A stretch of 26,724 bases of DNA from a virus. Every line of letters starts with the position of its first letter. Position 1 is the first letter of the stretch. Shown here piece after piece: positions 2-23,080 of the stretch. The notes beneath the pieces were generated by a model. That model made no database searches and had not been told where the DNA came from. It saw only the letters and a list, made by a program, of their open reading frames with translations. The stretch is from positions 1 through 26,724 of IMG/VR virus record IMGVR_UViG_3300037166_000313; one strand, written 5' to 3'. Both the position numbers and the translations under genes were made by a program.

Positions 2-472
2 ACCGAAGCCCCCACCGCCAAATGCAACTGCCAGCACTGCAACGGCCGTATCGCTTTTGACCCTGAACAATTCACCGCCCAGGGCGCAACCGCCGCCGGC
101 TCGCTCGGCCCCACAGTCACCTGCCCGCACTGCGGCATGGACACCATTGTCTTTCTGCCTCACAGCGACGCGGGCCGGCCCACCGTTACAGTCGCCCCGC
201 CGCGCACCAACACTCGCCGGCGCATCGGCGTAATTCTGGCCAGTGTCCTTGGTCTCCTGCTGCTAACCAGCTTTATCGCTCTTCTGGCGCGCAACGAATC
301 CGTTCAACAGACAACCGCCCTCGCAGGAGGAAGTGTGATCGCCATGGTCCTCTTCGGCATCCTCTTTCTAATCGCCCTTTTGTGGCTGCTCTTTCCGGTT
401 TTCATGTACTTCGGCATGAACCGTCTGGAGAAACTCCTGGAGCAAATCGAGCGCAACACCCGCACCCCATAG
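2..472 (+). CDS. Zinc-ribbon, two-TM membrane protein (5' end outside window)
   Basis: The reading frame is open from the first full codon at the left edge, so the start lies outside the window; 156 residues are visible. The N-terminal visible part has two Cys pairs, CNCQHC around residues 8-13 and CPHC around residues 45-48, typical of a small zinc ribbon. A polar linker follows, then two hydrophobic stretches beginning RIGVILASVLGLLLL and VIAMVLFGILFLIALLWLLF, and a short charged tail (RLEKLLEQIERN). I see a zinc-ribbon head with two membrane helices, probably inner membrane with the ribbon in the cytoplasm. Similar 'CPHCxGxIEFD' ribbons are common in Verrucomicrobiota proteins of unknown role. 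It could be host or phage-borne; it ends 47 nt before the integrase start on the same strand. No function can be assigned. Confidence 0.75.
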   Translation, partial: TEAPTAKCNCQHCNGRIAFDPEQFTAQGATAAGSLGPTVTCPHCGMDTIVFLPHSDAGRPTVTVAPPRTNTRRRIGVILASVLGLLLLTSFIALLARNESVQQTTALAGGSVIAMVLFGILFLIALLWLLFPVFMYFGMNRLEKLLEQIERNTRTP

Positions 473-519
473 AACCCTTACCCCATGTAACCCCATCATT
501 CTCATACCGTCCCATCACC

Positions 520-1878
520 ATGAACACACCCACCGTCCCCCGCTTCGCAGTCACCTTCCCCAACGGCCGCCCCCAGGTCCGCCCTCTGCCATCTGCCATA
601 GACCATGTGCCATCGCCCCGCGATCGCCGTCCCGGCGAGGAAGTCCTCGTTGGCGCCGGCAAAGTCCAACTCTTCGGCCGCGCCCCCGGCCCTTGGACCA
701 TCGCCTGGTATGAAGCCGAATCCTCTCCCCGCCACCGCACCACGCGCGCCAGCCACAAAAAAGCCAAAGCCCTCTTCGAGCGGAAGATCAAAGAGTTGAG
801 CAACCGCGCCACCGGCCTCCGCGAACTCAGCCCCCAGGACGGCGCCACTCACCTGCAAGCCCTGGACAACCTCTCGCCCACCGGCCAATCACTCATCACC
901 GCCACCGCCGAACACGCCCGCCGCGAGAAGATCCTCAAGGACAAGCAAATCACCTTTGACGCCCTCGTCGGATTCTGGGATGAGAACCGCCCGCGCATTG
1001 CCACCGCCCAACCCCTGCCCCGCGTCGTAGATGAATACCTGGCCGATCGCCAAGGCCAGCTCAGCAAAGATCACCACGCCCACCGCACCCACCAGCTCAA
1101 CAAACTCGCTCACTGGTACACCGGCCCCATCCATCAACTCCAGCGCGTGGACGTGGACATCTGGCTGAAAAGCCTCGGAGTCGGCCCCATCACCCGCCGC
1201 GGCTACAAAGAAGCCGCCCGCGAGTTGGTCCGCTATGCCGAGGCCTGCGGCTACGTCGGCCCAAACAACCCGCTCCTCGCCCGCGCCAAAGCCGACCGCC
1301 AGGTTGTCCGGGAAATCAAGATCCTCACCATTGACCAGGTCACCGCCCTCCTCACCATCCGCCAGCACGACGAAGAACAAGGCCGCGCCCAAAAGAGCCT
1401 GGTCCCCTTCCTGGCCATCCAACTCTTCGCCGGCCTCCGCCACAGTGAAGCCGCCCGCCTCGACTGGCGCGACATCCATTTTGGCGAGCATTCCATCTAC
1501 GTCCCCAAAGCCATCGGCAAGGGAGGCAACGCCCGCGTCGCTCCCATCAGCGAAAACCTCGCCGCCTGGCTAAAGTCCTACGCGAGGCGCAGCGGCCCAG
1601 TTACCAGCCTCAGCCAGATCAGCGGCGCCCTCACCAAAGCCAAGCGCAACGCAAACATTCCAGCCGGCGATGGTGAGACGAAGAACATCCTCCGGCACAC
1701 CGCCATCAGCTACCGCATGGCCGCAATCCAAGACATCGCCAAAGTCGCCCTGCAATCCGGCAACAGCCCCGCGATAATCCGAAAGCACTACGGCCGCCCA
1801 ATGCCCCAGGAAGAAGGCAAGCGCCTCTTCACCATCTACCCGGCCGACACCAAGCAACCCCGCCTCCCCGGACTGTGA
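520..1878 (+). CDS. Tyrosine recombinase / phage integrase
   Basis: A 452-aa site-specific recombinase, expected to integrate and excise the phage. The N-terminal ~170 residues include an arm-binding-like region (W-x-I-A-W-Y near 59-64) and a SAM-like core-binding domain around 165-265. The catalytic domain shows Arg307 (FAGLRHSE), a lysine candidate around K330-K334 in the beta-hairpin, Arg392 (NILRHT) and the nucleophile Tyr424 (RKHYGR). Both canonical active-site histidines (of HxxR and of GH) appear as Asn, N389 and N415. I chose ATG 520; an upstream in-frame start at 382 would overlap the preceding gene by 91 nt. No Shine-Dalgarno sequence is seen. Codons 22-31 lie in a four-unit heptamer array. 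The stop is 8 nt before a palindromic repeat and 94 nt before the candidate core attachment site, which fits an int-attP arrangement. Confidence 0.93.
   Translation: MNTPTVPRFAVTFPNGRPQVRPLPSAIDHVPSPRDRRPGEEVLVGAGKVQLFGRAPGPWTIAWYEAESSPRHRTTRASHKKAKALFERKIKELSNRATGLRELSPQDGATHLQALDNLSPTGQSLITATAEHARREKILKDKQITFDALVGFWDENRPRIATAQPLPRVVDEYLADRQGQLSKDHHAHRTHQLNKLAHWYTGPIHQLQRVDVDIWLKSLGVGPITRRGYKEAARELVRYAEACGYVGPNNPLLARAKADRQVVREIKILTIDQVTALLTIRQHDEEQGRAQKSLVPFLAIQLFAGLRHSEAARLDWRDIHFGEHSIYVPKAIGKGGNARVAPISENLAAWLKSYARRSGPVTSLSQISGALTKAKRNANIPAGDGETKNILRHTAISYRMAAIQDIAKVALQSGNSPAIIRKHYGRPMPQEEGKRLFTIYPADTKQPRLPGL
585..612. repeat. Heptamer array A, inside integrase
   Basis: Four 7-bp units in register: TCTGCCA, TCTGCCA, TAGACCA, TGTGCCA. 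They encode part of a low-complexity N-terminal stretch of the integrase (LPSAIDHVP). Because 7 is not a multiple of 3, gain or loss of one unit would shift the frame. Confidence 0.8.
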
Positions 1879-2609: not shown

Positions 2610-2996
2610 CTAACCGGAGTGGGCTTGGTCCAGCGCCTTGCGATCTTCCGCAATCGCCGTCCACCCACCAACCCGCACCCCGTCATAAATCTCCAGGCAC
2701 GTCGCCTCCGGCACGCCCAGCGACCGCATGGCCTCTAGCAGGATGCCATCGCAGTAATCCTGTGGCAGGTACGTGTAGCGGTAGAGATAGTCGTGCAGCA
2801 CGGCCGCCAGCCAGTACTTGCCAAACGGTGGCAGCAGGGGCCACGTAGCGCGCGGCGTGCTCGCCCCGTCTGTGGTGGTGCCCGCCGGCGCCGTGATGAT
2901 CGTCCCGGCATTGGTCTGGTACCGCAGCGGCTCCGCCAGTGTGAAATTCTGGCCATCGCCGGTCCGCACCAGGAGACTCTCTTGGAGGAATTTCAT
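2610..2996 (-). CDS. DUF1353 family phage protein
   Basis: A 128-aa protein with the DUF1353 signature: TTDGASTPRATW (around residues 41-52), then AAVLHDYLYR around 65-74 with an invariant-looking His-Asp pair, DGILLEAMRSLGV around 83-95, and a C-terminal YDGVRVGGW. DUF1353 proteins are found in many tailed phages and their biochemical role is not established; the HD pair hints at a metal or hydrolase site, which is inference. The start is ATG 2996, which overlaps the stop of the upstream lipoprotein gene in ATGA. A longer frame upstream is a shadow of that gene. Confidence 0.85.
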   Translation of the reverse strand: MKFLQESLLVRTGDGQNFTLAEPLRYQTNAGTIITAPAGTTTDGASTPRATWPLLPPFGKYWLAAVLHDYLYRYTYLPQDYCDGILLEAMRSLGVPEATCLEIYDGVRVGGWTAIAEDRKALDQAHSG

Positions 2997-3325
2997 GGCG
3001 CCAGGTGTTGCCGGTAGTAGAAACTCATCAGCGCAAACGCCCCCATGCCATCGCTGGTGATAATGAAGGTGTTTGTGCCCGTCGGCGAGATCCACCGCGG
3101 CGACGTCATCGGCGGATTCAGCCGCGCGCCATAAAGCCGCACCAGGTTGGTGTAGCGCTCGCTGAACAGCGGCGTGACGACGCAGCCCCGGTCCGGCAGC
3201 ACCTGCAGCACGCCCGAGTTCGCCACCCCGCCATCGAGCGACGGCCCGGCTGGCCGAACGATGCGCGGGGATACTGTGCATCCCACCAGTATCAGGAGGC
3301 TAAGCGCAAAGAAGCTGAATCGCAT
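2993..3325 (-). CDS. Small lipoprotein, prophage-encoded
   Basis: A 110-aa protein with a clear signal peptidase II signal: MRF, a hydrophobic stretch, and lipobox LVGC (Cys16). The mature part (TVSPRIVRPAG...) is predicted extracytoplasmic and contains SPRWISPTGTNTFIITSDGMG near residues 75-95. ATG 3325 has one of the few good Shine-Dalgarno sequences in the operon (AAGGGG, about 6 nt upstream), inside the end of the preceding gene, with which it overlaps by 26 nt. It lies in the part of a phage late operon where lysis genes often sit, so an outer-membrane spanin role is possible, but the protein is not proline-rich like Rz1. Mature function unknown. Confidence 0.75.
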   Translation of the reverse strand: MRFSFFALSLLILVGCTVSPRIVRPAGPSLDGGVANSGVLQVLPDRGCVVTPLFSERYTNLVRLYGARLNPPMTSPRWISPTGTNTFIITSDGMGAFALMSFYYRQHLAP

Positions 3326-3497
3326 TCAAGTCCCCTTTCTCCAAGGCAGCCTTGATGGCATCCTTGAGCGCCTGCACCTGGGCCGCTTCTTTCGCCACGA
3401 CTTCCGCCGGCGTATTCAACTGCGCATCCTTTTGCAGCGCCAGCTTGCCCACGTCGTCTGCCACCTGCAGCGCTCCCGTTATTGCGTCCACGGCCAT
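3300..3497 (-). CDS. Small helical protein
   Basis: A 65-aa, Ala-rich, probably fully helical protein (MAVDAITGALQVADDVGKLAL...) with no signal peptide and no clear transmembrane segment. Heptad-like spacing in KEAAQVQALKDAIKAALEKG suggests a coiled coil. The start at 3497 is 3 nt after the stop of the upstream lipoprotein gene. The 3' end overlaps the next gene by 26 nt and carries that gene's Shine-Dalgarno sequence. Function unknown. A short coiled-coil peptide between two lipoproteins might be part of a lysis complex, but nothing in the sequence shows that. Confidence 0.65.
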   Translation of the reverse strand: MAVDAITGALQVADDVGKLALQKDAQLNTPAEVVAKEAAQVQALKDAIKAALEKGDLNAIQLLCA

Positions 3498-3500
3498 GAC

Positions 3501-4022
3501 CTACTGACCCGCCAAGCCGGTGACCAGGCCCTCAGAGACCGCCCGGGTGATTGCCAACGCGATTTGCCCGCCAACCATGGGCCCGTACTTCGCCAAAAGC
3601 TGCTGCTCCAAGGCGCTCACAGTACTGAGCAACGAGGTCACCTCAGTGTTGAGCACCGGGTTGGCGTTGCCGCCCAAGAGGCCAATCACCTGCGCTGTGG
3701 TATTCGTGTTGGCCCCGTTCAAGATGCCGTCCAATGCCACCGCCGCGTCTTTCAGGGCCGGAATCGAACCCGGCTCCTTAGCCACGACTACCGACACCGC
3801 CCCGGCCGTGATGCCCTGCAGGACGCCGCAGTCCAGTGTCAGATTGGCCTGGTTCACCGTGACGACCGTGTTGGTGACGGGCAAATAACCCGCGCCGGTG
3901 ACACTATTTGTCCCCCCAGGCGTCACGGTCGTGGTCTTGCTGGTCATGCAGCCGGTCAGGCATCCAGAAAGCAGCGCCGCGGCCAAGGTGGAGAGAAGGA
4001 GGAATTTCATTTTCATAATCAT
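3501..4022 (-). CDS. Lipoprotein with Ala/Val-rich helical domain
   Basis: A 173-aa protein with a lipoprotein signal: charged MIMKMK, hydrophobic core, lipobox LLSGC (Cys21), with a second GC at 25. A Thr/Asn-rich linker (SKTTTVTPGGTNS) follows. The rest is small-residue-rich and hydrophobic: LDCGVLQGITAGAVSVVVAKE, then TSLLSTVSALEQQLLAKYG and a C-terminal amphipathic stretch. Verrucomicrobial phages often carry a protein with this linker and a 'GAVSVVVAKEP...ALKDAAVALDGI' region, but I know of no assigned function. ATG 4022 was chosen; two further Met codons follow within five residues. No Shine-Dalgarno is seen. Confidence 0.75.
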   Translation of the reverse strand: MIMKMKFLLLSTLAAALLSGCLTGCMTSKTTTVTPGGTNSVTGAGYLPVTNTVVTVNQANLTLDCGVLQGITAGAVSVVVAKEPGSIPALKDAAVALDGILNGANTNTTAQVIGLLGGNANPVLNTEVTSLLSTVSALEQQLLAKYGPMVGGQIALAITRAVSEGLVTGLAGQ

Positions 4023-4115
4023 TGCATTTGTGATTTATGAAAGAGCGAGACCGTCAACGCGTGAGCTGGTACCCAACGCGCCAGCAACGCCCCCCGGGAA
4101 TTGGGCCGCAATTCG

Positions 4116-4286
4116 TCACGGCCAGGTCCGCAAATTCGTGGTGGACTCAATCGTGGTCTGCCAGCCCGGCCAGCCGGCTAGATTGGTGGCCACCATCGGG
4201 GGATTGTTCCAGGCCAGGTGTTCGCTGGCCGGAGCGACCGCCGCGGCCAAAATCAGGAATGCCACGCCGCGAGCTTTCGCGAGCAT
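4116..4286 (-). CDS. Small exported peptide, possibly truncated
   Basis: A 56-aa open frame that starts ATG 4286, 4 nt after the stop of the preceding leftward gene. The N-terminus is a plausible Sec signal (KARG, then VAFLILAAAVAPASE). The rest contains WNNPPMVATNL...ESTTNLRTW and stops directly at TGA. 'STNL..W' is the start of the beta-repeat motif typical of verrucomicrobial secreted proteins, and the fold should need more residues. An alternative frame after the stop continues (TNCGPIPGG), so a frameshift or truncation is possible. Confidence is moderate because of its size. Confidence 0.5.
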   Translation of the reverse strand: MLAKARGVAFLILAAAVAPASEHLAWNNPPMVATNLAGWPGWQTTIESTTNLRTWP

Positions 4287-4290
4287 AAGG

Positions 4291-4503
4291 TTACCGCGGC
4301 ACAGTCGGCTCTGCGGGCGAAGTAGGTTTCGGCGTGTTGGTCCCGTTCATCACCGCATTCCACACGCCGCGCAAACCGCCATGGGTTTGCCAGCCATACC
4401 AGCCGCGCTTGATGTAGGGCAGCAGCAGGAATCCACCAATGACGTAGGGCGTCCACTTGGACGGGATGAGTTTGGTGATCTCAGGATCAATTTGGGCGAT
4501 CAC
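4291..4503 (-). CDS. Small single-TM protein, holin-like
   Basis: A 70-aa protein with one hydrophobic segment (YVIGGFLLLPYIKRGW, around residues 22-37) followed by a Trp/Gly-rich and then Pro/Thr-rich tail. I chose GTG 4503, whose GTGA overlaps the TGA of the upstream gene; this matches the 1-4 nt overlaps used throughout the operon. A longer form from ATG 4533 is possible. Together with the 64-aa membrane peptide just upstream it forms a pair of small membrane proteins, a common holin/antiholin layout. The role is inferred from position and topology only. Confidence 0.6.
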   Translation of the reverse strand: MIAQIDPEITKLIPSKWTPYVIGGFLLLPYIKRGWYGWQTHGGLRGVWNAVMNGTNTPKPTSPAEPTVPR

Positions 4504-4694
4504 TGCTTGTCCCTCCGCGCCACCCGCCGCCATTGCCAAACCGTATAAGCGGCCGAAAGCAGGATGAGTCCGAACTCCGCCCATTCTTTGAGCGTCACGA
4601 TATTGATCGTCGCCAGCACCGCGCTATTCGGAATCACGACCTTAAGCGTGTCCGCCAGCGTGTCGTCAAAAACCTTTGCGGCCCGGTCCAGCAT
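4500..4694 (-). CDS. Small membrane protein, holin candidate
   Basis: A 64-aa protein. The N-terminal half is amphipathic and includes a moderately hydrophobic stretch (VVIPNSAVLATINIV). It is followed by the hydrophobic segment EFGLILLSAAYTVWQW (about residues 40-55) and a strongly basic C-terminus (RRVARRDKQ), consistent with a short holin with a cytoplasmic basic tail. The start is ATG 4694, 36 nt after the protease gene. It overlaps the next small membrane gene in GTGA. No endolysin gene is recognisable next to it, so the lysis role is unproven. Confidence 0.6.
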   Translation of the reverse strand: MLDRAAKVFDDTLADTLKVVIPNSAVLATINIVTLKEWAEFGLILLSAAYTVWQWRRVARRDKQ

Positions 4695-4730
4695 TCACCA
4701 GCCGGAATCCGTCAACGTCGCAGGCCCGCT

Positions 4731-5747
4731 CTACCTCAGTGCCGGCCAATTCGTCAGTGCCGCAAAACTCAACTGATAATCCGTCCCGGCAGAATTGTTG
4801 GTCGAGAGCTGGTGCATGGCCGCGTTGATCGTCGCGCTCTGCAGCGCGTAATCCGGTCCGGATATTCCCGTGGTATAGGCCGAGACCAAAACAAGCTGGT
4901 TGCCGACCAGCAATCGAATCGGCGTCGAGGAGTCCCCCGACCGCCCATAGCAATTGGCGAGTGGGTCCGCGCAGGAGGTCCAGTTAGTCCCGACGCCACT
5001 GGCCGCCGGCAGATCGCCGCGAAACTCCACGCCGAACATGCTGCCAAAAATCACCCCCACCCCAAACACCAGCGAGTCCTGGTTTGCGCCGATCCCCTGC
5101 ACCGTCTGGCCCGGGTCGAGCCAGTTCGTATAATTGATCGGCAGCAACGGCAGAAACCCCACCGACGCCGGCAAGTCCGCATCCAGAATCCCCACGGTCG
5201 TATCGCTGTTCGGCAGGTTCGTTATCTGCAAACTCCGGCGGATGTAAACCACTCCGTTGGTGTCCACGAACACCGTCGAAGAAATCCCCAGGAACAGATG
5301 CGACCAGGTGACGTGCGACGCGCAAAGGTAGTGGCGGGGCGAGATCATCGTGATATGCCACGTGCCATCGTCCGAGGCATTCGTAACGCAATCCCCCAAA
5401 CACGTCGCGCTCAGCCCCTGCACTCCGGCCAGCCAGCAATTCGTGCTCAGCTTCGCCTGGTAGCAGATCCCGTACTGGTCAAACCCACACGGCGGCCCTG
5501 GCTCCAGGAATTGCATCGCCGAGAGCGCATTGGTGAACCCCGAGGTCCGCGCGACGGCATTGGTGGATAGATGGTACGCCAGCGTCCGCGTCACATCCGG
5601 CAGCACCGCGTTCGTATTGATGCCATCAATCACCCTTCCAACCAGCGCCCCGGCAATGCTGAAGCTGTTCAAGACGGGATTGGTTTGCGCCTGCGCGATT
5701 CCAGCGCAGAGCAGGAAGACGGCTAGGATGGGGAGGCGGAGATTCAT
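4731..5747 (-). CDS. Secreted trypsin-like serine protease (S1-type)
   Basis: A 338-aa protein with a Sec signal (MNLRLPILAVFLLCAGIAQA, cleavage near 20). The triad can be read as His145 in LCASHVTW (cf. TAAHC), Asp189 or Asp191 in ILDADLPA, and Ser273 in GRSGDSSTPIRLL (cf. GDSGGP). The VGNQLVLVSAYTTG stretch matches the strand after the S1 serine. The canonical GDSG is GDSS here. Several Cys (C87, C95, C104, C116, C120, C142, C259, C266) could form disulfides, as expected outside the cytoplasm. The start is ATG 5747, overlapping the previous stop by 1 nt (TGATG). It lies among tail-fibre-like and lipoprotein genes of the late operon, so it is likely made late. It may process virion or surface proteins or attack host-surface proteins; the target is unknown. 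Confidence 0.8.
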   Translation of the reverse strand: MNLRLPILAVFLLCAGIAQAQTNPVLNSFSIAGALVGRVIDGINTNAVLPDVTRTLAYHLSTNAVARTSGFTNALSAMQFLEPGPPCGFDQYGICYQAKLSTNCWLAGVQGLSATCLGDCVTNASDDGTWHITMISPRHYLCASHVTWSHLFLGISSTVFVDTNGVVYIRRSLQITNLPNSDTTVGILDADLPASVGFLPLLPINYTNWLDPGQTVQGIGANQDSLVFGVGVIFGSMFGVEFRGDLPAASGVGTNWTSCADPLANCYGRSGDSSTPIRLLVGNQLVLVSAYTTGISGPDYALQSATINAAMHQLSTNNSAGTDYQLSFAALTNWPALR

Positions 5748-6706
5748 CAATTTGGGCTGTAGTAGAGGTTGGTTCCCGTCGAATCCACCCGCAAGTAGTA
5801 GCCGGCGTGGGGAGCGTTGGTGGTTTGTAGATTCGCAGGGCCGATGTTGATCAAACGAGCGAGCGGAACTGTGCCTGTTGCCAGCGCCGATGCGTTCAGG
5901 TTGGTCATGCTGGAGCCGTTGCCAACAGGAGCGCCGTGAATGTAATTTTGCCCCAATGAGCCGACGAACATTCCTTGATCCGAACTCACTATTAAATTGC
6001 CGTCGTCGTCTATATAAATCTCGCTCTCGACAGTAGCGTCGTCCACAACTTTAGACAGCATTAGACTTTCTGTAACGGTCGGGTCCACAAGTGTTACCCC
6101 GCTCTGCCCATTCGTAATCCCCGCTGCCGTCACCGCATTCGTCGGCATCCGTGCCCAATCCCCCAGGGAGCCAGGCAGGGCGGACGGCGGGATGTTGGTC
6201 GTGAAGAGCAGCGCGTTCATCCCGCTAATGGAGACCCCCAGCCCGGTTCCGGGAATGAGTGTCAATCCGCCTCCCATCGCCCAAATCGAGGCAAACCGCG
6301 CATCCGCCTGAGTCATCGAGTAAGCCGGAATCTGCGAGCCTGCCAGCACGTAAGCCGACGCCACGCAATTGCTCGCATAGATCAGCCCATTCGTTGCCGG
6401 GATCGTGAACCAGTTGGTCGTTGCCTGCCATACTCCCTGGAATTCCCCGCGGTATAGTCCCGCCAGCATGTTGGTGGCCGTCGCCAGCCCGTGCATGTCC
6501 GTCAAATAAACCCGACGGTCCAAAGTCGTCATACCCATCGGGCTGGTGGAGGGCACGTACAACGGATAAAGGTAGAGCTTCCGCACCGTCTGCGGTGTCT
6601 GCCCAAAATCGCTGTAAGAGAAACAGACCTGGTTGGACTGCGCGCGCGCTGCAGGGGCCAGCGCGCCAACAAAGCAAACCATCACCGTCAGGATTAATCG
6701 TTTCAT
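5747..6706 (-). CDS. Tail-fibre-like protein with Sec signal
   Basis: A 319-aa protein with an N-terminal signal peptide (MKRLILTVMVCFVGALAPAARA, cleavage near 22). The centre has the region MTNLNASALATGTVPLARL, the 'NASALxxGTVPxARL' pattern that recurs in phage tail fibres and other trimeric beta-structures, and the end (GYYLRVDSTGTNLYYSPN) also resembles a fibre C-terminus. A region rich in acidic residues (VESEIYIDDDGNLIV) lies before it. Fibres assembled in the cytoplasm do not need a Sec signal, so its presence is notable. No Shine-Dalgarno is seen before ATG 6706. It is followed with 1-nt overlap by the protease gene. It could be a released adhesin, a surface decoy or a true tail component. 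Confidence 0.7.
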   Translation of the reverse strand: MKRLILTVMVCFVGALAPAARAQSNQVCFSYSDFGQTPQTVRKLYLYPLYVPSTSPMGMTTLDRRVYLTDMHGLATATNMLAGLYRGEFQGVWQATTNWFTIPATNGLIYASNCVASAYVLAGSQIPAYSMTQADARFASIWAMGGGLTLIPGTGLGVSISGMNALLFTTNIPPSALPGSLGDWARMPTNAVTAAGITNGQSGVTLVDPTVTESLMLSKVVDDATVESEIYIDDDGNLIVSSDQGMFVGSLGQNYIHGAPVGNGSSMTNLNASALATGTVPLARLINIGPANLQTTNAPHAGYYLRVDSTGTNLYYSPN

Positions 6707-6719
6707 AAAAGAGGGATAA

Positions 6720-6938
6720 CTAAGCCGGCTTGACCGGGGCTTGCGTGGCCGACCGTGCAGCCGGAGTCAACGGCGCCCGCTCCATCGTTTTTCTTGGCAG
6801 CGAATACTCGTTCGCCAACTTGAACATCAGCGCCCGTCGGAATCGCAGGTCCAATTCCGATGGCACGCCAATCGTGGTGTTGGCCTCATAGAGCCGGACA
6901 ATTTGCGCGCGCTCGATGAGCTCTTCTTTGGTGGCCAT
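6720..6938 (-). CDS. Small hypothetical protein
   Basis: A 72-aa protein, ATG 6938, stop TAG just before the fibre-like gene. The N-terminal half is charged and helical (MATKEELIERAQIVRLYEAN); the middle (ELDLRFRRALMFKLANEY) is basic-amphipathic and the C-terminus is Ala/Pro-rich. No signal peptide or membrane segment. It sits between two exported fibre-like proteins in the late operon, 77 nt downstream of the preceding gene. Possible fibre chaperone by position only; I do not recognise the family. Confidence 0.6.
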   Translation of the reverse strand: MATKEELIERAQIVRLYEANTTIGVPSELDLRFRRALMFKLANEYSLPRKTMERAPLTPAARSATQAPVKPA

Positions 6939-6986
6939 AACACCAACGGCATTCAGTCAACCCAACCCTCTGCAGACCTGCACGCC

Positions 6987-7015
6987 TCGGCTATCGGCTA
7001 TCCGGCGATTGGTGA
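6987..7015. repeat. Heptamer array I, at gene junction
   Basis: TCGGCTA, TCGGCTA, TCCGGCGA (one extra base), TTGGTGA, ending exactly at the stop codon of the 435-aa gene. The unit family (TTGGCTA/TTGGCGA) is shared with the arrays at 20143, 23914 and 24379. Confidence 0.65.
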
Positions 7016-8323
7016 TCATGGCCCAAACGGCTTCGTGTAGGTGCTGGTGCCATTGGTCGAGCCGGTGACGAAGAAAAACCCATTGCTCAACCAAAGCCGG
7101 CCGCCCCGCTGGTTGCCCAGGTCTCCTATCGTCGGCGTGTTGGTCTGCGTGTAGAGCTGGAGCGCCCCGCCGATGTTCACTGGCGCATTGATGCTCACCG
7201 AGTTTTTCGCGGGCAGGCCCGCCCGGAAAAACTGAACCGGCGAGGCCGCGTTGAACGGAATCGTGAAGGTCACTTCCCCGCTATTGGTGGCCATGGTGTA
7301 ATTGGTGAAGGTCGTCCAGCCGTTCAGCAACACCAGGTTGGTGCTGGCCTGCAGGTTCCAGCCGGACAGCAGTCCGCTTTGCGCAACCGACAGCAGCACA
7401 TTGGTTCCCGTGCCGTCCAGCGCCAGCCCGTCGATATGTATCCACAGCCCGGCGCTGCCAATGTCGATCAGCGTCTGAGCGTTCCTCAGCAGCGTGACGT
7501 GAAACGTGTTGCTGGCGTCCATGCTCGTCAGGAACGGCGAGAGCGTATTAGCCACCGCGGCCTCTAGGGAACGCTTGTTCACCGCGTCCGTTGGGTTCGC
7601 TGGGTCCGGGAAAGCATTGAACTGCCCAAAGTAGCTGTTAGTCCGCCCGACCAGCTCCGGATGATCAATGCCATAGATCACCAGCGAGCCAGCGTTCCCA
7701 GCCGTGCCCACCACAGCCACCGAAACGTTGGTAAAGATGCTCGCAAAGCGCGTAGCCAAAAACCAAGCGTTGGTGCCCGTGTAACTCAGCCAGACCGCTT
7801 CAACTTCATTCGTGGGCGTGGCAAAATCGCCTCCGCCCAGCAACGGTGTCGTCAGGGCAAAATCGTAGAACTGCGAGATCCGGCCGATGTAGTTGCTGCC
7901 CGAAAAGTTGAGCGGGTTAACGTTGGTCACCACATACTGAGCACTCGACAGCACCGTGTTGCTGAAGACCATCGCTGTGACAGAATTTGTGCCGGACGCT
8001 CCCGCCGGCAACCCCAATTGGAATAACCCGGCGACGCCCCCATAATTCACGCAGTAGGCAGTGGCCCCGGGCGCGAGCGTCACGGTGTTGGTAAAAACAA
8101 TCGCATTGCTCGATCGTATCTGACTGGCCAGCAGCGCCGTGTTGTGGTTGATCTTGTTCCAAATGACGAGATAGCTGTCCCGTGCTGGGTCCGTGCCATT
8201 CGTGCCACAAAAGATGTTGGTGGTGTACGGCAGCGCGTAAAACAGATTGGTTGAATACGTGAAGTCTTGGGCCGAAGCGGTCCACGCGAAAAGTAGGGCG
8301 ACAATAGAGAGAAGTGTTTTCAT
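7016..8323 (-). CDS. Exported fibre-like protein with verrucomicrobial beta-domain
   Basis: A 435-aa protein with a clear signal peptide (MKTLLSIVALLFAWTASA). The mature part is Asn/Thr/Ser-rich and beta-structured. Near the C-terminus, around residues 330-395, is the element SGWNLQASTNLVLLNGW...EVTFTIPF...VQFFRA. The 'W-x-LQxSTNL...W...FFR' signature is extremely common in secreted proteins of Pedosphaera-type Verrucomicrobiota. The region FPDPANPTDAVNKRSLEAAV resembles the 'P.na.davnK..ve..i' joint of phage fibre proteins. It therefore looks like a fibre joined to a host-type secreted module. ATG 8323 is 3 nt after the preceding small gene. Its role in the virion or on the cell surface is unknown. 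Confidence 0.75.
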   Translation of the reverse strand: MKTLLSIVALLFAWTASAQDFTYSTNLFYALPYTTNIFCGTNGTDPARDSYLVIWNKINHNTALLASQIRSSNAIVFTNTVTLAPGATAYCVNYGGVAGLFQLGLPAGASGTNSVTAMVFSNTVLSSAQYVVTNVNPLNFSGSNYIGRISQFYDFALTTPLLGGGDFATPTNEVEAVWLSYTGTNAWFLATRFASIFTNVSVAVVGTAGNAGSLVIYGIDHPELVGRTNSYFGQFNAFPDPANPTDAVNKRSLEAAVANTLSPFLTSMDASNTFHVTLLRNAQTLIDIGSAGLWIHIDGLALDGTGTNVLLSVAQSGLLSGWNLQASTNLVLLNGWTTFTNYTMATNSGEVTFTIPFNAASPVQFFRAGLPAKNSVSINAPVNIGGALQLYTQTNTPTIGDLGNQRGGRLWLSNGFFFVTGSTNGTSTYTKPFGP

Positions 8324-11805: not shown

Positions 11806-12303
11806 TCAACAAACCGATTTCCAGAGCAGCCAATAAACCGTGTCTTCATCGTCCCCATCCAAGTCCCCCTCCAATGGGGAACCGCTGGGCACTTCCCCAC
11901 CGCTACCGATTGGCGGGTCCTGGGGAACATGGTAGCCCGAGGCCGTCTTGGCCGGCACGGCCAGCAACGCCTGCCAAATGCCCGGCGTCGCCTGCATAAT
12001 TGTCGCCGAGACCAAATCAGTCAACCCAACCGTCGCCAGCGGGTTCTGCGGCGAGATATAGACAAAGGTGTTTGCGGACACAGTTACGGTCGGGTCCAAT
12101 TCCTTCATTGGAGTTTGCCACCCAAACCCGCTTCCACCAGTCCCGCCTTTTTTCTTCACCACCGAAACGCCCCGCGTCGTGCGATTCGTCGCCGAGTCGG
12201 GCGTGTCGATGGTTCGCAACGCTCCCAACCGGCGCTGCACCCAGCGCGCCCAGTTGTGGAATTGGGAATCACCCGCCGGCAATGGAGGAGGGGTATCGAG
12301 CAT
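11806..12303 (-). CDS. Minor tail protein candidate
   Basis: A 165-aa soluble protein, ATG 12303, 1 nt after the stop of the upstream gene. The N-terminal ~45 residues are charged (FHNWARWVQRRLGALRTID). A Lys/Gly linker (VVKKKGGTGGSGFGW) follows, then a beta-rich core (VTVSANTFVYISPQNPLATVG) and a strongly acidic C-terminus (EGDLDGDDEDTVYWLLWKSVC). It is a typical small tail-region protein by position, between the 275-aa minor tail gene and the 1104-aa protein. Family not recognised. Confidence 0.65.
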   Translation of the reverse strand: MLDTPPPLPAGDSQFHNWARWVQRRLGALRTIDTPDSATNRTTRGVSVVKKKGGTGGSGFGWQTPMKELDPTVTVSANTFVYISPQNPLATVGLTDLVSATIMQATPGIWQALLAVPAKTASGYHVPQDPPIGSGGEVPSGSPLEGDLDGDDEDTVYWLLWKSVC

Positions 12304-12304
12304 A

Positions 12305-13132
12305 TCACGAGGTCACGGGATCGTAATAGTAAGTGCTCCACTGCTCAAGCCAGTACTCCGTGACGATCTCGATCCGGCCGCCGGCTGTGCTCGACTCGCT
12401 GCTAGGCAGTTTGCGCCAGCTCCACAGATAGCCCGCCTGGGCCGGCGGCGCCGGGATGTTCTGGATCTTATAGACCAGCCGCGGCGGCAGCGAAATCACC
12501 CAATAGAGCGGGTTAGTGACTTCCGCCAGCAACTGCTGTGTCGTGTAGATCTGCTCGACGTTCTGGTCGGAAACGTTGGTCGAGTAGGCCGCGCTCACAT
12601 TGGTCGTGTGCCGCAGCACGTACTGCCCCAGGTAGAAATGCGTGCTGCCGGATGAGCAAAGCCCGTAGCAGGCCGCATGGTTGGCATACTGTGTAGGCGA
12701 CCAGCCCGCGAGCGGGTTCGGCGTCATCGCCCGCATGTCATCGAGGCACTCCCGCAACGCCTTGCCATCCTGGACATGCCGGTCACTGATAACCGACGGG
12801 TCCGATCCGATGATCAAAGTTTTTTTGTGGGCCCAGCCGGACTTTTGCAGTTCGTTGCAAGGCATCTCCCAACGATCGACGGGCGCCCCGGCCTGCGTCG
12901 GGTCCAGGCTGCCGCCGACAATCTCAATCTCCAACGTGACAGTGGTGCCTGTGGAGTTGGTGTTATAGGGCATCTGGAGCAGCACCGCCTGCGCGGCCAG
13001 GGTGTCCACCTGAGCCTGGTTGATGCACTTCCAGACCGCAAAGCGTGTCGGGCCCCGGACTGGGTCCCAGGCGAGCCGGTCGGGCTGCCGGACCGGCAAA
13101 GACGTGCCTTTAGCTCCATAGGGTAGTGACAT
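12305..13132 (-). CDS. Minor tail protein candidate
   Basis: A 275-aa protein. The start is ATG 13132, sharing one base with the tape-measure stop (TGATG), which suggests translational coupling. The sequence is mixed alpha/beta with no membrane segment. The conserved-looking stretch LRECLDDMRAM...YANHAACYG and the C-terminal YWLEQWSTYYYD are its most distinctive parts. Being the first gene after the tape measure, it occupies the slot of distal tail or minor tail protein genes in siphoviruses. I do not recognise a domain. Confidence 0.65.
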   Translation of the reverse strand: MSLPYGAKGTSLPVRQPDRLAWDPVRGPTRFAVWKCINQAQVDTLAAQAVLLQMPYNTNSTGTTVTLEIEIVGGSLDPTQAGAPVDRWEMPCNELQKSGWAHKKTLIIGSDPSVISDRHVQDGKALRECLDDMRAMTPNPLAGWSPTQYANHAACYGLCSSGSTHFYLGQYVLRHTTNVSAAYSTNVSDQNVEQIYTTQQLLAEVTNPLYWVISLPPRLVYKIQNIPAPPAQAGYLWSWRKLPSSESSTAGGRIEIVTEYWLEQWSTYYYDPVTS

Positions 13133-18170: not shown

Positions 18171-18647
18171 TCACTTATACTTCGCCGGCAAGATCAGCGA
18201 GAGGGAGTAGATGTACTCCGGCGACGCTGTGCCGCCGATGGCGTTGGTGGTCCGCAGATAAGCATAGTTCTGCACCGGGCCGACCAGGGCCACGGCGATA
18301 GTCCCCCTGCCCGTGGCCGGGTAGTTGGTGGTGACCGAGGCCACTGGCGAGAGCGTGGTCCACGTGCTGCCGTCCGTCGAGGACTGCAGGGTGCAGGCCA
18401 GCGTCGGGGTGGTGCCGGCGACGTTCGTCGCACTCAGCACCATGTAGGCATTGCCGAGCCAGGCGCCGTTGTTGGTGAACGTGCCGCTGGTGCCAGAGGC
18501 CGTGATGTCATTCCCCGAAACCAACTGCCAAACTCCAGGGCTGTCCCCCAAGGTTTGCTGGGCCGACGCGGTGGTCGGCAACATGGCGACGGAGGCGAGA
18601 AGGGCCATCGAAACGACAGCCGCGATATTTTTAAAACGGTTTTGCAT
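18171..18647 (-). CDS. Exported small protein in decoration-protein position
   Basis: A 158-aa protein directly after the capsid gene. This slot usually encodes the capsid decoration protein. Unlike those, it begins with a textbook signal peptide: MQNRFKNI, hydrophobic core AAVVSMALLASVAML, and TTASA before the cleavage site. The mature part is a beta-sandwich-like sequence (LGNAYMVLSATN, LACTLQSSTDGSTWTTLSP, YAYLRTTNAIGGTASPEYIYSLSLIL) of the 'LQ.S.DG.tW....' type. It could be a secreted cargo, or a decoration protein that has gained an export signal. No Shine-Dalgarno before ATG 18647; a GC hairpin lies between it and the capsid stop. Confidence 0.75.
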   Translation of the reverse strand: MQNRFKNIAAVVSMALLASVAMLPTTASAQQTLGDSPGVWQLVSGNDITASGTSGTFTNNGAWLGNAYMVLSATNVAGTTPTLACTLQSSTDGSTWTTLSPVASVTTNYPATGRGTIAVALVGPVQNYAYLRTTNAIGGTASPEYIYSLSLILPAKYK

Positions 18648-18723: not shown

Positions 18724-20712
18724 TTACTGAGCGGCGCTATCAGTGGAGGCCGCGAACGATCCCACATGCCGGATGCCGACATCCGCGAGCATGTTGATCG
18801 TCACCTTGATCTGGTGCTGGTCCGCCAGCGTGTAGGGATCGACCACGACGTCCATCCCGATCCAATCAGCGATGATGAGGTCCGCCCAGTTGCCGAAGAT
18901 CATCTTGTCTCCGGCGATCTGCTTGGTGACCACCGCGCGGTAGCCATTCACTTCGCCTTCGCCCGGCTTGCTGCCGTTCTCCCAAATGAAGACCGGGTAA
19001 GTGCTGCCGACTTTCGGAGCGGCTTTGAGTTTCGCGCGCGCATTCGGCGTGGAAACGTAGGCCATGGCGCCCAGCAACGCGTTCGCGTTTGCAACCTGCG
19101 TTTCAAACGCCAGCGTGTGCGCCCAATCGGCGGCGGCGCCGAAGGTTACCGAGCCAATGCCCGGGGTTGCGAGGATGCCCAGCGGCTGCCCGCCGGCGCC
19201 CGTCCCGGCCAGGCCGGCCAGGTCGATGGCTAGAGCCAAAACGCGCGCGAAGTCCTCGCGAACGAGGCCCTCGACATCCACCGAGGACTGCGCCAGGAGC
19301 ATCTTGCCCAAAGCGGTAACGGCGGAGAGCCGGTGCGGAGAGAGTCCGACCTGCCCGAAGGTGAGGTTGCTGGTGGTCGTCTTGGCATTCTCAGCCACCC
19401 AGTAAGCGGTTGCGCCGCCGTTCTGGCTGGGGATGGCCACATCGCCGACCAGGCCGCCCAACTTGCGCGCGCCGAGTTCAAAGCAAACAGCCATATTGCG
19501 CAGCAGCTCGATCAAACTCGAGCCGAGCACATCGGTTTGGACGGTGTAACCGCCCAAATTGCCCGTGCCCTTGGAGAGGTCCCGGAGCATGGCGGCCATC
19601 TGCATCAGCTCGCGTTGTTCGCGCGTGCCGTGAACGATTTCGTTCGGGATGAAGAATCCGGCGGCGCTGCGGCCGCAGACTTTGCCCACGGCGTCGGAAG
19701 CTTCCTTCTCGATGCCATCGACCGCCTGGTGATTGGCCATGCGGTTGAGCGCGCGGACCAAACTCCAGCGTTTCACTTCCTTGTTGGACATGCCGATGTC
19801 GCCCAACTGGCGCAGTTCATCACCCGTGGGGGCGGTGATCGGCTTTGCCGAAAACTTGGTTTCGAGGATCCACTTCCGGAAGGCTTCCGGAGAGGTGCCG
19901 TCATTGACGGCCGTGAGGGCCTCGGCATTGCAATCGAACTGGCGGCCCAGCGCGAAAAGTTCGCCGGCGACTTTCATCGCGGCTTTGCCGGCCTCAGCTC
20001 GCACGACCGTCAGGTCGGGAGTGGCAGCGGCCGTGGCGGCGCCGCCGCCTGCCGGAGCAGTGAGGGCGGGAGCCGGGTCGAGTAACAGAGAGGATCGGTT
20101 CATATTTTGGATGTTCGGAGTCCCGGCTTTAGCCGGTGCCCCTTGGCTATTGGCGGGGGGCGATTGGCGATCTGCCATCCCCTCCACCGTGGTATCGAAA
20201 TTTCCTGCGGCAGCTTCCGCGCGCCCGACGCCGACGGTGTTATCCGCGGGGACTGGTACGAGCGACACTTCGTATGGCTCCCAATTGACAGCGCGCAGGG
20301 TTTCCACGCCCTCCTCGATGCTATCGGTGACCATCTTGTGAACCCGGTAGCCGATTGAGACCAGCTTGCGGATGCCATCCTTGACATCCTGGAAGACCTC
20401 TTCGGCCCGGGCCGATTTCCCGAATCTGACCGTGGCCCGCAGCCTTTTATCCTTGAGGCTGGCGGACTCGACGACGCCGACCTGGTCGGCCGTGTCGTGA
20501 TTCACCAGCAGCGCCGCTCCGGAGTTCATCCGGCTCAAGTCGCAGCTCTCGGGGGAGTGATCCAGAATCTCCTGCCCAAACCATCGTGCTACCGGCAGCT
20601 CGCTCGAACAGCTCATCTCGACCGTGCGCGCCTTTTCGTCGATAGCCCCACGTTCAAACGTGAGCGACCGAAAAAGCATGCCGGTTTTGATCGTCTTGCT
20701 CGTTGCTGCCAT
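18724..20712 (-). CDS. Prohead protease - major capsid protein fusion (HK97-type)
   Basis: A 662-aa fusion. Residues 1-165 are an HK97-family prohead protease: His72 in LLVNHDTADQVG, Ser119 in KLVSIGYRV, and the conserved WEPYEVSLVPVPAD (144-157) with an acidic candidate E148. Residues 166-210 are a disordered linker encoded by a heptamer array and a dispersed repeat. Residues ~290-660 are an HK97-fold major capsid protein: SLVRALNRMAN, then TVQTDVLGSSLIELLRNMAV, VAIPSQNGGATAYWVAENA, and C-terminal DVVVDPYTLADQHQIKVTINML. The protease is expected to cut the linker during maturation. Such fusions are known in several phages. ATG 20712 faces the divergent + strand connector gene. No Shine-Dalgarno. 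Confidence 0.93.
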   Translation of the reverse strand: MAATSKTIKTGMLFRSLTFERGAIDEKARTVEMSCSSELPVARWFGQEILDHSPESCDLSRMNSGAALLVNHDTADQVGVVESASLKDKRLRATVRFGKSARAEEVFQDVKDGIRKLVSIGYRVHKMVTDSIEEGVETLRAVNWEPYEVSLVPVPADNTVGVGRAEAAAGNFDTTVEGMADRQSPPANSQGAPAKAGTPNIQNMNRSSLLLDPAPALTAPAGGGAATAAATPDLTVVRAEAGKAAMKVAGELFALGRQFDCNAEALTAVNDGTSPEAFRKWILETKFSAKPITAPTGDELRQLGDIGMSNKEVKRWSLVRALNRMANHQAVDGIEKEASDAVGKVCGRSAAGFFIPNEIVHGTREQRELMQMAAMLRDLSKGTGNLGGYTVQTDVLGSSLIELLRNMAVCFELGARKLGGLVGDVAIPSQNGGATAYWVAENAKTTTSNLTFGQVGLSPHRLSAVTALGKMLLAQSSVDVEGLVREDFARVLALAIDLAGLAGTGAGGQPLGILATPGIGSVTFGAAADWAHTLAFETQVANANALLGAMAYVSTPNARAKLKAAPKVGSTYPVFIWENGSKPGEGEVNGYRAVVTKQIAGDKMIFGNWADLIIADWIGMDVVVDPYTLADQHQIKVTINMLADVGIRHVGSFAASTDSAAQ
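20117..20136. repeat. GGAGTCCCGGCTT... repeat, copy 2 (coding)
   Basis: GGAGTCCCGGCTTTAGCCGG, translated in frame on the minus strand as PAKAGTP in the protease-capsid linker. The CCGGCT-TT-AGCCGG part is a perfect hairpin. It lies 6 bp from heptamer array E. Confidence 0.85.
20143..20177. repeat. Heptamer array E, in capsid fusion linker
   Basis: TTGGCTA, TTGGCGG, GGGGCGA, TTGGCGA, TCTGCCA on the + strand. On the coding strand it gives the DRQSPPANSQ stretch between protease and capsid domains. Confidence 0.8.
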
Positions 20713-21505: not shown

Positions 21506-23080
21506 ATGAAATTCTCCCTCTCGCTTGGCAGCTTCAACCTATCCGTCGGCAAGAATGTTCCGGCCGCCACCGGCAAGCGCAGTTTCGCCGCCGGCAGCAT
21601 CAACCGCCTGACGAGCGACTGGTCCACCACGGTGACCAGCGCCGATGTCGAGGCCCGCAACGACGTCACCAAACTTCGCAGCCGGTGCCGCGAGCTCGAG
21701 CGGGACGATCCTTATGCGCGCCACTATTTCAAGCTGCTGCGCAATAACGTGCTCGGGTGGCAAGGGATGCGGTTGGAAATGAAGGTCAAGGACCCCAGCG
21801 GCTCCCTCGACATCGAAGCCAACACGATGATTCAAGATGCCTGGGAGAAGTGGGGCAAAAAGAAGAACTGCACCGTGCAGCGCAACCTGAGCTGGCGCAC
21901 CGTCTGTTGGCTGGTCATCACCGCGCCGGCTCGTGACGGTGGCGTCCTGCTCCGGAAAGTCCGCGGCTTCGACAACGAATTCGGTTTCGCCCTGCAGCTT
22001 TTGGAAATCGACCTGCTCGACGTTTATTACAACGTCCCGAACTGCGGCCGCGACCAGGGCAGCCCCGGCAACGAGATCCGCATGGGCGTCGAGCTGAACC
22101 AGTGGAAAGAGCCGGTCGCGTATCATCTCTGGACTCGTCACCCGGGCGATTACAACAGCGCCTCCGGCTTCAAACGCGAGCGCATCCCCGCCGCGGACAT
22201 TATTCACCTGTTCATGCCCGACCGTGTCATGCAGACCATCGGCACGCCCTGGATCACCAGCGCAATGCTCCGCCTGAACATGTTGAACGGCTATGAGGAA
22301 GCAGAGTTGGTAGCCGCGCGGACCGCCGCCTGCAAGGGCGGTTACATCACGAAAGAGAAACCCGAACAGTACACCGGCGACGACGTGGACCATGAAGGCA
22401 ACCAGGTCGAGGAAATGGAGCCCGGCGTCGTCCGCGAACTCGACCCCGGCCAGGGCTTCGTCGAGCACGACCCGAAGCATCCGAACACCGCCTACCCCGC
22501 TTACATCAAGCAAGTCCTCCGCGGCGCCGCCGCCGGCATGAGCGTGAACTACAACACGCTGGCTAATGATTTGGAGGGCGTGAACTATTCGAGCCTGCGT
22601 GCCGGCACCCTAGAGGACCGCGAAGAATGGATGATGGTTCAGGAGTGGTTTGCGGAGGATCTCTGCGACGCGGTTTTTGAAGCCTGGCTACCGATGTCAA
22701 TCCTCTCCAACCAGGTCGCGCTGCCCATGGCTAAGCTCGACAAGTTCATGGCCCAGACCTGGCAAGGCCGCCGCTGGCCCTGGGTGGACCCGCTGAAGGA
22801 CATTCAAGCGACGGTGATGGCCATTAACAACCGGCTGGAGTCCCGCACCGGCGCCGCCGCCGACCAGGGCAACGATCTGGGCGAGCTGTTCAACCAGATC
22901 GAAGCCGAAGAGGCATTGGCCAAAGCGAAGAACGTCGAACTCCCCGCCCTGGGGAGCCAGCCGCCGGCGGACATCGAGGACGATGACACCCCGCCCAAGA
23001 AACCGGTCAAGGAAGGCGAAGAAGCCCCCGAGGGCGGCCTGCCCCCCGTCCCTAAGAAGCCTTCCAAGCCCAAAAAGTGA
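21506..23080 (+). CDS. Portal protein (lambda gpB family)
   Basis: A 524-aa portal, forming the dodecameric DNA gate at the capsid vertex. Family features: LRSRCRELERDDPYARHYFKLLRNNVLGWQG (about residues 52-82), IQDAWEKWGKKKNC, DGGVLLRKV, IPAADIIHLFMPDRVMQTIGTPWITSAM, RTAACKGGYI, and GMSVNYNTLANDLEGVNYSSLRAG, the conserved stem/wing region, followed by WVDPLKDIQATVMAINN. The last ~45 residues are a Pro/Lys/Glu-rich tail. Length is typical. ATG 21506 follows the connector stop by 7 nt. The stop TGA lies inside a 16-bp palindrome. It is on the opposite strand to both the capsid and terminase genes, which is unusual. Confidence 0.93.
   Translation: MKFSLSLGSFNLSVGKNVPAATGKRSFAAGSINRLTSDWSTTVTSADVEARNDVTKLRSRCRELERDDPYARHYFKLLRNNVLGWQGMRLEMKVKDPSGSLDIEANTMIQDAWEKWGKKKNCTVQRNLSWRTVCWLVITAPARDGGVLLRKVRGFDNEFGFALQLLEIDLLDVYYNVPNCGRDQGSPGNEIRMGVELNQWKEPVAYHLWTRHPGDYNSASGFKRERIPAADIIHLFMPDRVMQTIGTPWITSAMLRLNMLNGYEEAELVAARTAACKGGYITKEKPEQYTGDDVDHEGNQVEEMEPGVVRELDPGQGFVEHDPKHPNTAYPAYIKQVLRGAAAGMSVNYNTLANDLEGVNYSSLRAGTLEDREEWMMVQEWFAEDLCDAVFEAWLPMSILSNQVALPMAKLDKFMAQTWQGRRWPWVDPLKDIQATVMAINNRLESRTGAAADQGNDLGELFNQIEAEEALAKAKNVELPALGSQPPADIEDDDTPPKKPVKEGEEAPEGGLPPVPKKPSKPKK

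Follow-up and report, generated by a model that had tools for sequence, protein, structure and literature searches.

Structural proteins of tailed phages are taken to be cytoplasmic, and the locus described here raises the question of why several proteins of a phage late operon begin with what appear to be export signals. The window, the whole stretch of 26,724 nt that was analysed (IMGVR_UViG_3300037166_000313), belongs to a temperate tailed phage of the HK97 type, with a probable host among the Verrucomicrobiota, and the genes considered all lie on its minus strand (Table 1). A sequence-only reading had proposed that seven of its late genes encode signal-bearing proteins, among them two lipoproteins, a protease, two fibre-like proteins and a protein in the decoration slot, and that these might remodel the surface or exclude superinfection, act after release, or be parts that join the virion outside the inner membrane.

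Signals were called with a home-made rule, not SignalP, which looks for a basic n-region, an uncharged hydrophobic core and either an A-x-A-type site or a lipobox. By this rule, and after start correction, four of the 26 late-operon proteins (fib2, fib1, the protease and the cement-slot protein) have canonical Sec signals, each combining a basic n-region, hydrophobic core and A-x-A-type site for SPase I with a supported start, and two more of the same 26 carry lipoboxes (2993-3325 and 3501-4022). The predicted leaders, with a slash at the cut, are MKTLLSIVALLFAWTASA/QDF for fib2, MNLRLPILAVFLLCAGIAQA/QTN for the protease, MQNRFKNIAAVVSMALLASVAMLPTTASA/QQT for the cement-slot protein (29 aa) and MKRLILTVMVCFVGALAPAARA/QSN for fib1, where the cleavage site was read by eye and the rule placed the cut earlier. 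None of the 139 non-gene ORFs of at least 60 aa in the window reaches a rule score of at least 33, and 22 of 2,431 internal Met-started peptides pass (0.9%), a rate at which six passes among 26 late genes have a probability of about 1e-7; a chance origin of the signals is thus ruled out. So is a start-site artefact: the signals, whose loss on start correction had been named as what would overturn the earlier reading, remain at the corrected starts, including that of the protease, which is ATG 5747 (in a TGATG overlap with the fib1 stop) and not TTG 5750. Cysteine content, considered as a signature of export, showed no clear difference. From these sequences we infer that the signal-bearing late proteins would be translocated and cleaved.

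Table 1. Features of the late operon discussed in the text (positions in the window).
Feature	Position	Strand	Remarks
DUF1353 protein	2610..2996	-	PF07087, 4e-22
lipo1, predicted lipoprotein	2993..3325	-	lipobox LVG/C; start ATG 3325
65-aa ORF overlapping lipo1	3300..3497	-	ORF listing
lipo2, predicted lipoprotein	3501..4022	-	lipobox LSG/C; start ATG 4022 or 4016
56-aa peptide, plausible signal	4116..4286	-	MLAKARGVAFLILAAAVAPASEHLAWNN...IESTTNLRTWP
Small ORF, one hydrophobic segment	4291..4503	-	ORF listing
Holin-like ORF, 64 aa, one hydrophobic segment	4500..4694	-	no Pfam/PHROG match
Trypsin-like protease, 338 aa, predicted Sec signal	4731..5747	-	one-base overlap of its start with the fib1 stop
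fib1, fibre-like, 319 aa, predicted Sec signal	5747..6706	-	start ATG 6706
72-aa ORF lying between fib2 and fib1	6720..6938	-	no signal by rule
fib2, fibre-like, 435 aa, predicted Sec signal	7016..8323	-	start ATG 8323
Host-type STNL..W..FYR beta-domain in fib2 (residues 270-372)	7208..7516	-	sequence matches
Cement/decoration-slot protein, 158 aa, predicted Sec signal	18171..18647	-	directly downstream of major capsid gene; start ATG 18647
Fused protease/major capsid protein (context)	18724..20712	-	phrog_617, 2.3e-140

The signals on fibre-like and decoration-slot proteins thus bear out the earlier reading; its count of seven holds for four Sec signals and two lipoboxes, the seventh being the 56-aa peptide, whose signal is plausible but whose gene is probably truncated, because the peptide ends just inside the host-type STNL..W motif. 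The two lipoproteins that had been placed in the exported cassette are probably a separate and ordinary lysis or surface cassette beside the holin-like gene. A two-gene spanin was not found at lipo1, since the overlapping 65-aa ORF has neither a membrane segment nor a signal, despite the lipobox. Lipo2 is weakly similar to phrog_1119 (Cor) over the leader region only (E 0.25), and a Cor-type exclusion reading of it is unsupported. The neighbouring DUF1353 protein has a homologue (40% identity, in L133) that likewise lies near the late-operon end, in the G310 prophage. An Rfam search of the window gave no match.

By its complete triad and predicted fold, the product of 4731-5747 is a PA-clan serine protease. 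H145, D182 and S273 are invariant across 12 aligned sequences, and a model of moderate quality (pLDDT 64) matches chymotrypsin-fold proteases in Foldseek (E 5e-7, probability 1.00); it differs from those proteases in having no match to Pfam trypsin and no solved relative by sequence. The domain also occurs in the tail-gene neighbourhoods of four other prophages, with a signal in G192 and with none found in G050, G246 and G121, and in likely host secreted proteins. Fib2 contains a fibre-type motif, NPTDAVNKRSLEAAV, read from the sequence, and fib1 a motif, LNASALATGTVPLARL, with short matches in other genomes. The two had been described as joining phage-fibre patterns to a host-type secreted beta-domain; the domain is indeed found in fib2, where it matches proteins from two genomes of the Verrucomicrobiota at 31% identity (E about 1e-4), but neither protein has a Pfam or PHROG match, to a fibre family or otherwise. 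The window proteins resemble phage tail fibres with enzymatic tips in their fibre motifs, operon position and hydrolase or protease domains, and differ from classical tail fibres, which lack a Sec signal. Direct searches of viral contigs and tblastn of named phages found no relatives of the protease, the cement-slot protein or a 1104-aa protein, and tblastn of fib2 in named phages found nothing.

The product of 18171-18647 is a probable capsid-cement protein. Its sequence matches phrog_9522 (3.7e-7) and phrog_427 (1.3e-3), and its family profile matches the BPP-1 cementing protein (3j4u, E 8.2e-5), whereas the single sequence gave no match to that protein; the predicted model, examined for a jellyroll fold, is mostly beta and of low quality (pLDDT 51). 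The BPP-1 cement protein Bbp16 is a capsid component, uncleaved in virions and resolved from Met1 (PMC3863775). The likeness lies in the family profile, the gene adjoining the major capsid gene and a similar length; the difference is that Bbp16 begins at Met1 without a leader and the window protein does not. Relatives of the latter in L011, L030, L043 and L044 also begin without a comparable leader. The kinship of the slot protein, through its family, with a cement protein lends some weight to the reading in which the virion acquires parts beyond the inner membrane, as does the occurrence of the protease domain in tail regions with no signal detected.

A leader by itself is no proof of export, because the gpT major capsid proteins of three Pseudomonadota prophages (L264, L267 and L280) also carry Sec-like leaders, although capsids have to be filled in the cytoplasm. 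The premise that Sec signals are normally absent from virion proteins is broadly right, with these three as exceptions. Together with the Mu protease gpI of L263 and L269, the gpT proteins, with leaders that are Sec- or lipoprotein-like, could point to N-termini that serve assembly, as membrane tethers or removable pro-segments of proteins that are never translocated. We regard this as unlikely, since the leaders, though varied in sequence, follow the canonical design and have A-x-A sites, small separate genes next to them bear signals of their own, and lipoboxes have no such role in assembly.

The arrangement recurs, as the sequence-only reading had suggested should be checked, in roughly one in three of the Mu-like prophages sampled from Verrucomicrobiota: a long signal-bearing gene is present in 8 of 24 such regions and in 1 of 24 from Pseudomonadota (p=0.02), where Portal_Mu matches with only one phage-type ORF were left out (e.g. 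L254, L256-L260, L273, L283, L287, L289, L290) and where long tail-region genes are almost never signal-bearing. The Verrucomicrobiota examples include signal-bearing PHROG tail-fibre genes between the tail-tube and tape-measure genes (L249, phrog_35419, 6e-25; L234, phrog_2631, 1e-8; L243, phrog_7389, 1.4e-5, and also phrog_3018 head decoration, 5e-13). The predicted cut falls directly before a common IPW motif in L229, L234, L243 and L247; at least two consecutive genes have their own signals in L234, L243, L247, G192 and G386; and in L240 the gene directly after the capsid gene bears one. Besides the large tail-tip gene, G263, G020 and G172 show no further gene of fibre type up to the boundary with the host. 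The trait is not universal, most capsid-related Verrucomicrobiota prophages being without signal-bearing fibres, nor is it restricted to that phylum, given a four-gene cassette in G579 (Pseudomonadota) and two signal-bearing genes after the capsid gene in the Nitrospirales L046. Leaders and secreted domains might instead be pieces of host genes for secreted proteins, captured by recombination and serving no purpose for the phage, as the STNL domain, the truncated peptide at 4116-4286 and the fibre-like motifs shared with probable host secreted proteins (e.g. L305) would allow; the recurrence of intact frames at one operon position across several prophages, and the enrichment over Pseudomonadota, make this very improbable.

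The explanation we favour, tentatively and at somewhat less than an even chance, is that an outer-virion-type module (cement, two fibre-like proteins and protease) is exported by Sec late in infection and joins particles as lysis mixes the compartments. What is observed is the signals, their place in the operon, the catalytic triad of the protease and the recurrence in other prophages. Export would take place while the late genes are expressed, and the proteins would fold in the periplasm; least certainly, once a holin breaks the inner membrane they might become outer parts of capsids and tails that are already finished, and the particle, bearing a protease-carrying fibre set, might be completed outside the cytoplasm. 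We counted against this explanation that export removes proteins from the assembly site, that fib1 and fib2 match no fibre family, that the slot protein alone misses BPP-1 and has a poor model, and that gpT proteins have leaders and likely host secreted proteins the protease domain.

Nearly as likely is that the exported proteins stay off virions, as surface or released adhesins, receptor blockers or a protease/hydrolase activity remodelling the surface. Roles of this kind include superinfection exclusion, competition and freeing virions from debris at lysis. The same signals fit it, as do the enzymatic content (trypsin-like here, with a weak SGNH-type match in G310) and the host-type beta-domain of fib2. 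There is also a precedent in lambda Lom, a signal-bearing gene between the tail spike and tail fibre genes that is expressed in the lysogen (PMC12309495); Lom and similar morons share with the window a signal-bearing gene among tail-fibre genes, but Lom is an outer-membrane beta-barrel and the window signals are on fibre-, enzyme- and capsid-type proteins. Surface or released activity leaves the signal on a cement-type capsid protein unexplained, and homology to known exclusion proteins is absent apart from the leader match of lipo2 to Cor. The exclusion meaning proposed earlier found no specific support.

Returning to the joining of exported proteins to virions, its more general form, that some tailed Verrucomicrobiota phages finish their virions outside the cytoplasm, with Sec-exported cement, side fibres and fibre-borne enzymes attaching during or after lysis, is rather more doubtful. 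That DGR target proteins lack a signal peptide has been used to support their origin from phages (PMC6199706), an argument weakened by signal-bearing fibres that recur in late operons within a single host phylum. The recurrence also cautions annotators against treating genes of this kind as belonging to the host or as products of a wrong start. It suggests that some phages may send proteins of outer-particle type out of the cytoplasm, and points to export as a part of the late phage programme.

The sequence-only reading gave seven proteins of the window export signals, and on re-examination of the start of every gene before signals were called, four Sec signals and two lipoboxes were retained. 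Since the rule used (basic n-region, uncharged hydrophobic core, A-x-A-type site or lipobox) is simple and home-made its background was measured; the rule is passed by none of 139 non-gene ORFs of the window and by 0.9% of internal peptides that start with Met, and a count of six among the 26 late genes is far above chance. The seventh, a short secreted peptide of 56 amino acids, has the C-terminus IESTTNLRTWP, which stops within a host-type motif, and probably derives from truncation of a host-type secreted gene. The single cassette first proposed is in fact two, one of the fibre-like proteins fib2 and fib1 and the trypsin-like protease, the other of two lipoproteins beside a holin-like ORF and a DUF1353 gene. 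The protease starts at an ATG (5747) with a one-base overlap with the fib1 stop, and thus the two are probably translated together. A short lipoprotein also precedes the DUF1353 gene of the G310 prophage, and lipoproteins lie within the prophage regions fetched from G119 and G152, so that the lipoprotein part is regarded as ordinary lysis-region or surface lipoproteins; no spanin pair could be confirmed in this region.

The 26,724-base virus contig, with no host contig attached, encodes an integrase, gpA-type terminase, HK97-type fused protease/capsid, portal and tape measure, with most late genes on the minus strand, running down to the DUF1353 gene. The portal is on the plus strand, opposite to the terminase, the capsid and the remaining late genes, which lie on the minus strand; this may reflect a rearrangement or an assembly error, and no strong inverted repeats flank the portal. 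The host is probably a member of the Verrucomicrobiota, because the host-type STNL domain within fib2 matches genomes of that phylum and because the G310 prophage has a capsid N-terminus 61% identical to that of the window, together with homologues of p101 and DUF1353.

Coordinates of features in the window and in compared loci (L numbers)
Feature	Locus	Position (strand)	Family or detail
Integrase	window	382-1878	PF00589
Lipoprotein 1	window	2993-3325
Lipoprotein 2	window	3501-4022
Short secreted peptide	window	4116-4286 (-)
Protease	window	4731-5747 (-)
fib1	window	5747-6706 (-)
fib2	window	7016-8323 (-)
Decoration-slot protein	window	18171-18647 (-)
Protease/capsid	window	18724-20712 (-)	phrog_617, 2e-140
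Portal	window	21506-23080 (+)
gpA-type terminase	window	right end	PF20454
Signal-bearing gene pair	L046	12287-13510 (+)
Sigma factor-like gene	L170 (G192)	11819-12364 (+)
Four-gene cassette	L271 (G579)	2869-7294 (-)
gpT	L264	5037-6092 (+)	clean leader, ~28-30 aa
gpT	L267	13631-14692 (-)	clean leader, ~28-30 aa
gpT	L280	11714-12757 (-)	clean leader, ~28-30 aa
gpI	L263	15266-16393 (-)	Sec- or lipoprotein-like leader
gpI	L269	3407-4555 (+)	Sec- or lipoprotein-like leader

The decoration-slot protein is related to proteins directly behind the capsid genes of L011, L030, L043 and L044, which begin without a comparable leader; the mildly hydrophobic N-terminus of the L044 relative passes the rule, yet lies within the N-terminal part aligned across the family. 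A profile built from all five sequences matches the BPP-1 cementing protein (PDB 3j4u, E 8.2e-5), which the window sequence alone did not when searched against the PDB, and the predicted structure was too poor for judging the fold. The BPP-1 protein is uncleaved and needed for infectious particles (PMC3863775), whereas a Sec leader is predicted here. Given these relatives and this profile match, the window protein is probably a capsid-exterior protein that gained a Sec leader.

Domains related to the protease occur in 17 of 388 Verrucomicrobiota genomes (a draw centred on the genome of L079, titled Opitutales, which fixes the phylum), and the triad His145, Asp182 and Ser273 is invariant across 12 aligned members, with a predicted fold matching chymotrypsin-type proteases (model pLDDT 64). 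Some of these resemble secreted proteins of the host. Others lie among tail genes, with a signal and a fibre-like N-terminus in the Mu-like G192, with no signal found in G050 and G246, and within the baseplate region in G121; a Sec signal thus accompanies the domain in some phage tail regions, with none found in others. An RNA polymerase sigma factor-like gene follows the signal-bearing fibre/protease pair in the G192 late operon.

Export-signal genes do recur in verrucomicrobial prophages. Mu-type portals were found in 118 of the 388 genomes, and among 40 regions downstream of them, scored with the same rule, long signal-bearing genes lie within the morphogenesis operon in L219, L229, L234, L240, L242, L243, L247 and L249; G192, found separately via the protease, was added. 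PHROGs matches are to tail fibre for L249 (6e-25) and L234 (1e-8), and to decoration (5e-13) and tail fibre (1.4e-5) for L243; L219, L229, L242, L247 and the two G192 genes had no strong PHROG match and are termed fibre-like solely on motifs and position. An IPW motif directly after the predicted cut is shared by L229, L234, L243 and L247, and in the last three a small second signal-bearing gene comes next. L240 has a further one directly after the capsid gene, and G386 has, by eye, about five in succession; of its long ones, two satisfy the rule. In G263, G020 and G172 the whole tail module is present as far as the host boundary, and no other fibre-type gene was apparent besides a large tail-tip gene.

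With the same rule, Pseudomonadota Mu-like regions gave one comparable cassette (G579), comprising four signal-bearing genes in a row, of which two have collagen-like repeats. Limited to regions of at least 12 kb with at least four phage-type ORFs, the counts are 9/25 Verrucomicrobiota against 1/24 Pseudomonadota (p=0.011), or 8/24 against 1/24 without G192 (p=0.023), both p-values being rough because counting was partly by eye and post hoc and genomes were unmatched for relatedness. Few of 45 HK97-type control regions, mostly Pseudomonadota, have clear signal-bearing non-lysis genes, the clearest being two directly after the capsid gene in Nitrospirales NPIRA02 (L046). Portal_Mu (PF06074) calls for caution as a prophage marker; L254, L256-L260, L273, L283, L287, L289 and L290 have a single phage-type ORF each and adjoin genes reading like a respiratory/sulfur electron-transfer operon, not prophage.

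In three Pseudomonadota Mu-like prophages the major head subunit gpT (PF10124, E 1.6e-97 or better) itself has a Sec-like leader, with ribosome-binding-like sequence upstream, and the Mu protease gpI (PF10123) has a leader in two loci. Capsids are filled in the cytoplasm, and thus either export is escaped or the leaders serve another role, which keeps alive the explanation that the window's leaders are Sec-like and the proteins are not exported.

The signals, gene positions, protease triad and recurrence are shown here, and export of the window's late Sec-leader proteins is inferred; that they would then rejoin virions at lysis is the least certain step. Rejoining has a slight edge, because no other use is obvious for a protein of cement type and because the protease domain is also found in signal-less tail-region genes; action at the surface or after release is nearly as likely, with lambda Lom as precedent (PMC12309495). 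That phage DGR proteins carry no signal peptides has been used as support for phage origin (PMC6199706), and a text search of open-access literature turned up no account of tailed-phage fibres or cement proteins bearing Sec signals. Lom, like the window genes, is a signal-bearing late-operon gene and already known; as far as found in that literature, what is new is that such signals are on fibre- and cement-class proteins, and recur there.
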